DNA of 28,673 nucleotides, taken from IMG/VR virus record IMGVR_UViG_3300048036_000015, positions 1 through 28,673 of that record; one strand, written 5' to 3'. This DNA is from a virus. This document shows positions 24,290 through 27,436 of this stretch, in pieces; position 1 is the first letter of the stretch; each line of letters opens with the position of its first letter. The notes under the pieces are model-generated. The model was not told where the DNA came from, searched no databases, and was given only the letters and a program-made list of their open reading frames with translations. Made by a program: the position numbers and the translations under genes.

Positions 24290-24934
24290 ATGGAACAACC
24301 AAACTACTACTCAATCCTTACGGCTGAAGTTCGATACGACAAAGATCTGACACCGAACGCGAAGCTACTCTATTCAGAGATAACTTGCCTCACAAATAAG
24401 AATGGCAAATGCTGGGCATCAAATGGCTACTTTGCTAACCTTTACGAAGTAAGTCCGATAACAATATCCAGATGGATAAATCAACTCGCTAAGAAAGGAT
24501 ATATAAGCATAACAATGCAGTATATACCTAACACTAAGCAAATAGAAAAACGTATTATATGTATTAACAAAAATGTTAATAGGGTAAACCAGAATGATTT
24601 GGGGGGTATTAACAAAAAAGTTAAACACCCTATTAACAAAATTGTTAAAGATAATACTACAAGTATTAATACTACAAGTAATAATAATATAGAGGGTAAA
24701 CCCTCTTCGATCGATGAGGTCAATAATTATTTTTTAGAGAAAAATTTTGATTTGTCGGAAGCAATTAATTTCTTTGAGTATTATGAAAACAATGGCTGGA
24801 AGCAAGGCAAGAACAAAATGAAAAAATGGAAACTGGCTGCAAATCGTTGGATGAGAAATTACAAGCCAAAGGAAAATAAAGGTTTAGCATCTCAATATGG
24901 TTTTAGTATTAACAATCAAAAACAACTAACATGA
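24290..24934 (+). CDS. Replisome organiser / replication initiator
   Basis: A 214-residue protein. Residues 5-75 form a winged helix of the phage replisome organiser type (LTPNAKLLYSEITCLTN, CWASNGYFANLYEVSPITISRWINQL). A low-complexity Asn/Lys/Val/Ile linker (about 90-140) follows, then a C-terminal DnaD-like tail, FFEYYENNGWKQGKNKMKKW with LAANRWMRNYK, which in related proteins helps load the helicase. The linker-coding part carries repeats that look like an origin (see 24564-24714). It has its own promoter and is followed by an ATGA overlap with the methyltransferase gene. Confidence 0.85.
   Translation: MEQPNYYSILTAEVRYDKDLTPNAKLLYSEITCLTNKNGKCWASNGYFANLYEVSPITISRWINQLAKKGYISITMQYIPNTKQIEKRIICINKNVNRVNQNDLGGINKKVKHPINKIVKDNTTSINTTSNNNIEGKPSSIDEVNNYFLEKNFDLSEAINFFEYYENNGWKQGKNKMKKWKLAANRWMRNYKPKENKGLASQYGFSINNQKQLT
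24564..24714. other. Candidate replication origin inside the initiator gene
   Basis: Three 16-base elements of form TTAACAAAANNGTTAA lie at 24564-24579, 24609-24624 and 24633-24648, each with arms TTAAC/GTTAA that are mutually complementary; the third has 7-bp arms. Next come two 14-base direct repeats TAATACTACAAGTA (24652-24665 and 24667-24680), a run of AT-only triplets, a hairpin AGAGGG/CCCTCT (24691-24706) and the palindrome TCGATCGA (24707-24714). Iterons followed by an AT-rich stretch in the linker-coding part of the initiator gene match the lambda O/ori design. Function is inferred. Confidence 0.6.
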
Positions 24935-25551
24935 AAATTACAAACGAGTGCAATATGGAATTAATGTTAAGGTACGAGGATAATCACTTTGACTTGGCTA
25001 TTGTTGACCCACCTTATGGAATTGATGCTGGGAATATGCAAATGGGTAATAACTCTAAAAAGAAATGGACAAAAAAAGATTGGGATAAAAACACACCGAA
25101 TAAAGAATATTTTGCCGAATTAAAGCGAATAAGTAAAAATCAAATTGTTTGGGGTGGCAATTATTTTGAACTAAAACCATCTAAGTGTTGGGTTATATGG
25201 GATAAAAACAATGGTGAAAGTGATTTTGCTGATGGTGAAATGGCTTGGACATCTTTTAATAAGCCTATGAGAATTAGAAAACAACATTGGTGTGGAAGTG
25301 CTTCTAATTGGGAAGATACAAATGGTAAAATACACCCAACACAAAAACCAGTTAAATTATACGAATGGTTATTAATGAACTACGCTAAAGAGGGCGATAA
25401 GATTTTAGACACACATTTAGGTAGTGGAAGCATTGCAATAGCTTGTCATAATTTAGGCTATGATTTGACTGCTTGTGAATTAGATAAAGATTACTATCTT
25501 TCTGCAATGAAACGTATTAACCAGCATCAAGCACAACTAAGGATATTATGA
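24931..25551 (+). CDS. Orphan DNA methyltransferase (N6-adenine or N4-cytosine)
   Basis: A 206-residue amino-methyltransferase. Catalytic motif IV is DPPYG at residues 26-30. The SAM-binding motif comes later, LDTHLGSGS at 159-167, after HPTQKP at 135-140, and CELDKDYY at 182-189 follows. The order (motif IV before motif I) is the beta-class order. No restriction enzyme lies nearby, so it probably protects phage DNA from host restriction or marks replication. It is coupled to both neighbours by short overlaps; its target site cannot be read from the sequence. Confidence 0.9.
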   Translation: MKITNECNMELMLRYEDNHFDLAIVDPPYGIDAGNMQMGNNSKKKWTKKDWDKNTPNKEYFAELKRISKNQIVWGGNYFELKPSKCWVIWDKNNGESDFADGEMAWTSFNKPMRIRKQHWCGSASNWEDTNGKIHPTQKPVKLYEWLLMNYAKEGDKILDTHLGSGSIAIACHNLGYDLTACELDKDYYLSAMKRINQHQAQLRIL

Positions 25552-26216: not shown

Positions 26217-26416
26217 AGTACAACACAGACAAGCGCACACGAAAAAAGATTGACAAGCTACTGGAACAGAATGCAAGAAACGTGGCAAACTTTGGAACAA
26301 AGGGTAAGCATGATCTAAGAACTAAATCAGAATTTAACAAGGCTTGGACAGAAATACAAAGAGAAATACGTGAACTGGATGCAGATTTCTACAAAGTAAT
26401 AAAGGCACAGAATTGA
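26213..26416 (+). CDS. Small basic helical protein (67 aa)
   Basis: A 67-residue Lys/Arg-rich protein, MKYNTDKRTRKKIDKLLEQN at the start and helix-forming to its end (FNKAWTEIQREIRELDADFYKVI). No recognised domain. It is tightly coupled on both sides: an ATGA overlap upstream and a TTGA overlap with the nuclease gene downstream. Nucleic-acid binding is plausible from charge only. Confidence 0.66.
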   Translation: MKYNTDKRTRKKIDKLLEQNARNVANFGTKGKHDLRTKSEFNKAWTEIQREIRELDADFYKVIKAQN

Positions 26417-26760
26417 AAGCATTAGAGGACAAGTTACAAACGGCAGTAATAACATACCTACGGTTGGATAAGAAAGCATTGTATTGCGCTTCTTTAGGTG
26501 GTCAATATCAACGCTATCATTCGCAAAGGATGAAAGCCAAGAGGACTGGATATGTGGCTGGTTTCCCAGATGTATTTTGCTACGATGCCAGAGGTGGGTA
26601 TCATGGTCTTGCTCTTGAGCTAAAGGTAAAAGGTAACTACGCAAGTCAGAAGCAGAAGAATTGGATTAAGAGATTAAACGAAAGAGGCTATATGGCAAAA
26701 GTATGTACTGGCTTTGATGATGCTAAAAAGTTTATTGATGATTACTACGATTTAGAATAA
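26413..26760 (+). CDS. VRR-NUC domain nuclease
   Basis: A 115-residue nuclease of the PD-(D/E)xK superfamily. VAGFPDVFCYD gives the active Asp at 53, LALELKVK at 66-73 gives the E-x-K pair, and SQKQKNWIKRLNERGY with VCTGFDDAKKFI completes the VRR-NUC pattern. It probably cuts branched DNA such as recombination or replication intermediates before packaging. No ATG exists before the core, so the start is the TTG at 26413, which overlaps the preceding stop (TTGA). Confidence 0.88.
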   Translation: MKALEDKLQTAVITYLRLDKKALYCASLGGQYQRYHSQRMKAKRTGYVAGFPDVFCYDARGGYHGLALELKVKGNYASQKQKNWIKRLNERGYMAKVCTGFDDAKKFIDDYYDLE

Positions 26761-27239: not shown

Positions 27240-27326
27240 ATGGCTATGGCAGAAACTTACATTTACGCAGTTGCGATAATATTACCAGTAGTGTACATAT
27301 TGGGTATGTACTTTACAACAAAGTAG
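27240..27326 (+). CDS. Tiny membrane peptide whose stop lies in the tRNA (28 aa)
   Basis: A 28-residue frame MAMAETYIYAVAIILPVVYI followed by LGMYFTTK, essentially one membrane segment with a short tail. The start has the A-rich leader (AACAATTAACTATTT) used by other early genes. Its last five bases, including the TAG stop, form the first bases of the tRNA. It may be a real membrane peptide or chance. Confidence 0.42.
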   Translation: MAMAETYIYAVAIILPVVYILGMYFTTK

Positions 27327-27414
27327 GGTGGTGGAACTGGCAAACACACCCTCCTGTCTCGAGGGCGAGGATTGTAGCAATACCCTCTTGAACGTTCGAA
27401 TCGTTCCCCTACTG
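27322..27414 (+). tRNA. Class II tRNA with anticodon GTC
   Basis: A 93-base cloverleaf. The acceptor stem AGTAGGG/CCCTACT pairs at all 7 positions; T8 and G9 follow; the D stem GTG/CAC has loop residues A14 and G18 G19; the anticodon stem CCCTC/GAGGG carries loop CTGTCTC, which reads anticodon GTC at 27356-27358; the T arm GAACG-TTCGAAT-CGTTC is perfect. The variable region is 24 bases and can fold as GAGGATTG/CAAT..CCTC. No CCA is encoded; the discriminator base is G. The D arm is like tRNA-Leu, but the anticodon would decode Asp codons and Asp tRNAs have no long arm, so identity is unresolved. Confidence 0.85.
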
Positions 27415-27436
27415 CTAAACTTTAAAAACTAAACAA

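Follow-up and report, generated by a model that had tools for sequence, protein, structure and literature searches.

The locus raises the question of what purpose is served by an RNA that has the body of a class II tRNA and the anticodon of tRNA-Asp. The DNA, referred to here as the window, comprises all 28,673 bases of a virus record from IMG/VR. ARAGORN called a single tRNA gene in it, a tRNA-Asp (gtc) at 27322-27415 on the plus strand. The preliminary description of this DNA had given the span as 27322-27414, which is correct to the discriminator base G73; C74 at 27415 is included in the ARAGORN call. The features of the locus are as follows.

27322-27415, plus strand: class II tRNA-Asp-like RNA gene, from the acceptor stem to C74 (ARAGORN call; contigs L002 and L003; family covariation)
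27322-27328, plus strand: 5' strand of the acceptor stem, AGTAGGG, pairing with 27407-27413
27329-27348, plus strand: D arm of the tRNA-Leu type, TGGTGGAACTGGCAAACACA, without U20a
27331-27333/27345-27347, plus strand: D stem; the arm reads GTG-GAACTGGCAAA-CAC
27349-27365, plus strand: anticodon arm, CCCTC-CTGTCTC-GAGGG, the stem of which covaries in relatives
27356-27358, plus strand: anticodon GTC, within the loop CTGTCTC
27366-27389, plus strand: variable region, 24 nt
27390-27406, plus strand: T arm, GAACG-TTCGAAT-CGTTC
27407-27413, plus strand: 3' strand of the acceptor stem, CCCTACT, read by eye
27414, plus strand: discriminator G73, followed by C74 at 27415
27241-27327, plus strand: small ORF, MAMAETYIYAVAIILPVVYILGMYFTTK, with its stop codon TAG inside the acceptor stem

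By eye, T8 and G9 were read between the acceptor stem and the D arm. The acceptor and T stems are 7/5, and the variable arm is formed by GAGG (27367-27370) pairing with CCTC (27384-27387), with ATTG/CAAT inside. When the sequence was re-read, every cloverleaf landmark that had been named for a class II tRNA was right, and the T at position 37, previously pointed out as odd, was confirmed. The D arm had been described as Leu-like, and it differs by one base from that of a Bacteroidota tRNA-Leu(UAG), TGGTGGAACTGGCAGACACAC; on this match, the RNA body was probably derived from tRNA-Leu. The layout of small ORF and RNA is shared by L002 and L003, and as far as known the ORF lies outside the function of the RNA. 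Further upstream are ordinary phage genes for a replication-initiation-like protein (24290-24934), an N6/N4 DNA methylase (24931-25551) and a VRR-NUC nuclease (26413-26760). The window terminase most closely resembled terminases from phages of Bacteroides and Parabacteroides, and the exonuclease shared ~49-50% identity with exonucleases of Synechococcus and Flavobacterium phages; judged by sequence, the host is likely a member of the Bacteroidota.

Taken alone, the window sequence folded unremarkably (z -1.0), and the Rfam tRNA model (RF00005) did not report the window copy even at E<=1. With the same model, ordinary Bacteroidota tRNA-Leu genes gave 45-61 bits, and the phage relative L009, at 39.9 bits, was the sole relative scored as a tRNA. 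Near-identical copies were present in two other viral contigs (L002 and L003), and a covariance model, R1, scored the identical L001 copy at 103 bits. A looser pattern search revealed 34 stretches in viral contigs sharing the D arm and a YTGTC loop, and those that were parsed formed cloverleaves in which the variable region measured 19 to 79 nt. The pattern matches L041, L046, L050 and L053 were due to chance and are not RNAs. Among 23 diverse sequences, compensatory changes were found in 16 of the 24 pairs and 98.7% of the pair cells were standard. The covariation score was 0.612, against 0.178 in shuffles and <=0.18 in slid controls, and it supports the cloverleaf stems and the 4-bp base of the variable arm; the D stem barely varies and is therefore outside the reach of covariation. 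A chance hairpin or an assembly error is ruled out by the three near-identical contigs together with the strong covariation. No alternative fold with a Leu, Ser or Tyr anticodon emerged, the 5-bp anticodon stem and its YTGTCNC loop covarying and UC-N-C being invariant in the loop of the relatives. The idea of an assembly error in a tRNA whose relatives have a standard anticodon likewise failed, since the relatives keep GTC, and the anticodon first read here agrees with the ARAGORN call.

R1 scored the best cellular copies at ~105-114 bits, against 40-63 for the usual class II tRNAs in these genomes. Bacterial pattern matches were mostly in Pedobacter and its close relatives, as single copies, pairs and arrays of five. 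Approximately two thirds of 300 genomes from the order of Pedobacter matched R1 at 1e-21 or better, the remainder only at the ordinary tRNA-Leu level near 1e-13. Across the phylum, a family member was found in roughly one in ten of 247 genomes; R1 matches of 65-68 bits elsewhere in the phylum proved to be ordinary tRNA-Leu. Phage carriers fell into 10 groups by nucleotide similarity. The family is absent from Rfam and had gone unrecognised: an Rfam search that included the variable-arm (V) domain gave no family above threshold, the best being a sub-threshold sRNA match elsewhere in L163. Neither the RNA nor its link to asparagine was found in the open-licence literature, and earlier work in subscription journals is possible. 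Because ARAGORN misses long-armed copies and there is no Rfam family, these RNAs are easily overlooked.

Variable arms range from 19 to ~106 nt across the family and from 38 to 106 nt in most cellular copies, and the 24-nt arm of the window is a reduced form of this cellular domain. In the larger V domain, covariation backs paired segments, and the motifs AYAAAC, GGGTTGACCAC and GCTAAC are near-invariant (alignment A4, columns 15-20, 60-71 and 98-103; loci L153-L167, L014 and L023), without a match in Rfam. The domain is shared by the bacteria and two phage copies (L014 and L023), while most phage copies are without its motifs. Tandem pairs are common (L036:1338-1614, L042:1199-1473 and many others), with a first arm of ~39 nt and a second of ~74 nt. 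Pedobacter sp. SYSU D00535 (L037:3983-5600) carries five copies in tandem at intervals of ~370-400 nt, and the stretches separating them contain promoter-like and terminator-like sequences. A separate observation was a tRNA-Leu-like gene in a SAR202 MAG (L055:7464-7494, minus strand, and the bases that follow) with a hairpin of ~34 nt in its anticodon loop; this insert, CCAGATT...AATCTGG, is possibly an intron.

To consider which enzymes might act on the RNA, its bases were compared with known identity elements. The bacterial AspRS set comprises G73, G34 U35 C36, C38 and, as a minor element, G2-C71 (PMC9976931). All 86 distinct cellular copies had, without exception, U1-A72, G2-C71, U35, C36, C38 and G73. 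G34 was present in 84/86, so that GUC with C38 and G73 is found in the window, in 84/86 cellular and in 24/24 phage copies; part of the cellular set came from a pattern requiring a TGTC loop, and those recovered solely with the covariance model agree.

The preliminary description had suggested that, if charged with a class II amino acid, the RNA would recode Asp codons. Serine (or leucine) inserted at Asp codons, as by allo-tRNAs, would suit the class II body, G73 and G2-C71, and allo-tRNAs often have GUC as their anticodon (PMC7609411). However, C72 and C11-G24, which mark Ser identity in bacteria (PMC9976931), were not found in the copies examined, which have A72 or U72 and U11-A24 instead, and the Leu discriminator A73 occurs in no copy, all having G73. 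Moreover, the acceptor and T stems are not of the 8/4 or 9/3 type, and the anticodon-loop positions that are invariant are those read by AspRS, not SerRS. With the AspRS set kept, recoding is not supported and is judged very unlikely.

The same comparison was made for GatCAB. U1-A72 makes Asp-tRNA-Asn a substrate for amidation, and G1-C72 and U20a keep tRNA-Asp from being one (PMC9976931). The host class I tRNA-Asp genes carry both G1-C72 and U20a. In the family, G1-C72 was absent, being replaced by U1-A72 in 86/86 cellular copies and by A1-U72 in the window, and the D loop contained GGCA, that is no U20a, in 86/86. The full GatCAB-type acceptor (U1-A72, without G1-C72 or U20a) was thus present in all 86 cellular copies and in 19/24 phage copies. 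A1-U72 was seen in 5/24 phage copies, among them the window clade, which of the GatCAB identity features shows only the absence of G1-C72 and of U20a; amidation of the window copy is less sure for this reason. In E. coli, G1-C72 also helps to place the 3' end for AspRS (PMC9976931), and its absence from the family counts against the proposed charging with Asp, as does G10, which only 65/86 cellular copies keep.

Features associated with decoding were more relaxed. U33 was changed to C or G in 5/86 cellular copies, and position 37 was T in 63, C in 13, G in 10 and A in none. These data bear on the possibility that the RNA is simply an extra tRNA-Asp reading GAC/GAU in ordinary translation, its class II body being an accident of an anticodon change in a tRNA-Leu. 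The retained AspRS determinants and the D arm of the tRNA-Leu type fit this explanation, as do the ARAGORN calls of tRNA-Asp for short-armed copies and the U33 always kept in phages. It is nevertheless quite unlikely, given the cellular copies that lost U33 and the A37 and G1-C72 that never occur. Ordinary class I tRNA-Asp genes already coexist with the RNA in the same genomes, and the co-occurrence with GatB and AsnC and the missing asparagine synthetases, described below, would be left unexplained. With the identity elements kept and U33 and purine-37 relaxed, the RNA appears to combine recognition by AspRS with the acceptor that GatCAB needs.

Clustering of the proteins encoded around chromosomal copies revealed one recurrent neighbour, of ~158 aa. 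This protein belongs to the Lrp/AsnC family of regulators; among NCBIfam models AsnC matched it best, with a score under the equivalog cut-off. It is divergent from the RNA within 300 bp at 54 of the 67 non-redundant chromosomal loci, mostly at a distance of 121-207 bp, and genomes outside the main group are included. The E. coli asnC gene has a similar arrangement, lying divergent from asnA, which encodes asparagine synthetase A. The regulator-target swap that was expected in genomes without the RNA (RNA-), namely AsnC beside asnB, was not seen. At L155, L168 and L169, in three genomes outside the Pedobacter group, paired RNAs lie near proteins of ~1450 aa and ~345-366 aa and not beside AsnC.

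The divergent AsnC gene and the structured V domain with its invariant motifs would also suit a regulatory tRNA mimic, one that reports the supply of Asp or Asn through its state of charging or amidation or that acts as a competitor for AspRS or GatCAB, its effector being the variable-arm domain. The Pedobacter arrays, in which upstream TTTG/TAnnTTTG-like motifs and a terminator-like hairpin were recognised by eye, would provide such an RNA with its own promoter-like and terminator-like sequences. Yet the phage copies that mostly lack the V motifs keep the anticodon and nearly always the acceptor elements, and a regulator would leave unexplained where Asn comes from in genomes that have the RNA (RNA+) but no AsnA or AsnB. 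A regulatory role is therefore considered unlikely.

GatB was present in 43/43 RNA+ genomes tested. Within the Sphingobacteriales it was found in 25/25 RNA+ and 0/25 RNA- genomes, a perfect split that perhaps reflects one old event and not 50 independent trials, as these genomes share descent. Outside the Sphingobacteriales, GatB was present in 18/18 RNA+ genomes and also in 38/46 RNA- Bacteroidota, and as an exclusive marker of the RNA it holds only within the order. The housekeeping-type AsnB (~565 aa) showed the reverse distribution in Sphingobacteriales, with 24/25 RNA- against 0/25 RNA+ genomes. It is almost certain that the RNA represents a real conserved Bacteroidota family with ties to AsnC and GatB.

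AsnRS was detected in 52/52 genomes tested, including all 43 RNA+ genomes. A joint query with E. coli AsnA, the AsnB of genome G007 and E. coli GlnRS over the 43 RNA+ genomes, which like the others are partly drafts, gave GlnRS in 41/43, AsnA in 3/43 and housekeeping AsnB in 0/43. As AsnRS and GlnRS are present, neither Gln-tRNA nor Asn-tRNA requires GatCAB in the 41 genomes, and the remaining task of GatCAB there is likely the synthesis of Asn. Most RNA+ genomes also have AsnB-family paralogues of ~600 aa above the TIGR01536 cut-off, and these might make Asn; in G005, G006, G018 and G030, all RNA+, neither an AsnB-family match nor AsnA was found. G373 and G463, the two RNA+ genomes without a GlnRS match, are among the three with AsnA and carry an RNA without G34: the G373 copy (L151:2338-2414) has the loop CTATCTC with anticodon AUC, and the G463 copy (L161:5071-5186) has CTCTCTC with anticodon CUC. 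One of these altered copies has a variable loop of only 8 nt, and in both genomes the RNA gives the impression of being in decay.

Among RNA- genomes, those with GatB that were tested likewise lacked AsnA and housekeeping AsnB, and they may use the classical route in which AspRS and GatCAB act on tRNA-Asn; RNA- genomes without GatB were mostly AsnB+. In G308 (2.0 of 2.85 Mb read), tRNA-Asn has U1-A72; with a non-discriminating AspRS, the classical route would therefore suffice, and the RNA would need another role. The single AspRS found in G308 lacks the His/Gly pair, which we take to be the non-discriminating signature.

From these observations, the tRNA-Leu-derived class II RNA family of Bacteroidota was postulated to serve tRNA-dependent synthesis of Asn and not decoding, a proposal to which we give an even chance of being correct. 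The RNA would first be transcribed, in the chromosome probably under the control of AsnC. AspRS would then charge it with Asp through G34 U35 C36 C38 and G73. Since a discriminating AspRS cannot aspartylate tRNA-Asn, an Asp anticodon on a GatCAB-type acceptor would be needed at this step. GatCAB would next amidate the Asp to Asn on the RNA, which through U1-A72 and the absence of U20a differs from ordinary tRNA-Asp. Finally, Asn-RNA would be kept off the ribosome and the Asn released for use by AsnRS. The shortened copies carried by phages would perhaps raise the supply of Asn during infection.

Asn-pathway or AspRS genes were not found in the phage contigs carrying the RNA. Phages often carry tRNAs against anticodon-nuclease defences, and the presence of a single tRNA gene in the window could accordingly be read as a decoy or replacement for a host tRNA-Asp under such attack. 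This is very unlikely for a family that is mainly chromosomal, beside AsnC and tied to GatB. The broader idea of a decoy or structural RNA, raised in the preliminary description, does not account for AsnC, GatB or the missing asparagine synthetases. The proposed role in Asn synthesis, if true, would explain the source of Asn in Bacteroidota that lack the usual asparagine synthetases while having AsnRS, GlnRS and GatCAB, a puzzle set out for bacteria in PMC4206432. It would also mean that a tRNA is devoted to making an amino acid and not to decoding, and that the metabolic gene borne by a phage has RNA and not protein as its product. In its fullest form, in which a non-decoding chimera of Asp anticodon and Asn acceptor is the RNA cofactor for Asn in many Bacteroidota, the V domain has a function of its own and the phages carry an RNA-only metabolic gene, the proposal is tentative and falls somewhat short of an even chance.

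Comparison with known systems places the RNA between several of them. With bacterial tRNA-Leu it shares a near-identical D arm, a long variable arm and 7/5 acceptor and T stems, but it differs in having GUC, G73 instead of A73, U1-A72 and a far longer and more variable V arm. With bacterial tRNA-Asp it shares G34 U35 C36 C38 G73 and G2-C71; unlike tRNA-Asp it is class II, has U1-A72 instead of G1-C72 and has neither U20a nor, in cellular copies, A37. The non-proteogenic tRNA-Gly of staphylococci is a dedicated tRNA for a pathway other than translation, being class I and used for the cell wall. A non-translation role would be common to both, whereas the amino acid, class and pathway differ. Like the allo-tRNAs (Mukai 2017, reviewed in PMC7609411), the RNA has a class II body with an anticodon foreign to Leu, Ser and Tyr, GUC being among theirs, but it has 7/5 instead of 8/4 or 9/3 stems and no Ser determinants, and it occurs in Bacteroidota whereas allo-tRNAs occur in Clostridia, Proteobacteria and Acidobacteria. 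The functional parallel proposed is tRNA-dependent Asn synthesis by AspRS and GatCAB on tRNA-Asn, as in Bdellovibrio (PMC4206432), with which it shares GatCAB, AsnRS, GlnRS, the apparent lack of the usual asparagine synthetases, U1-A72 and, if the proposal is correct, the conversion of Asp to Asn on an RNA. The difference lies in the carrier, which here would be a class II RNA of its own bearing an Asp anticodon; a non-discriminating AspRS would then not be required.
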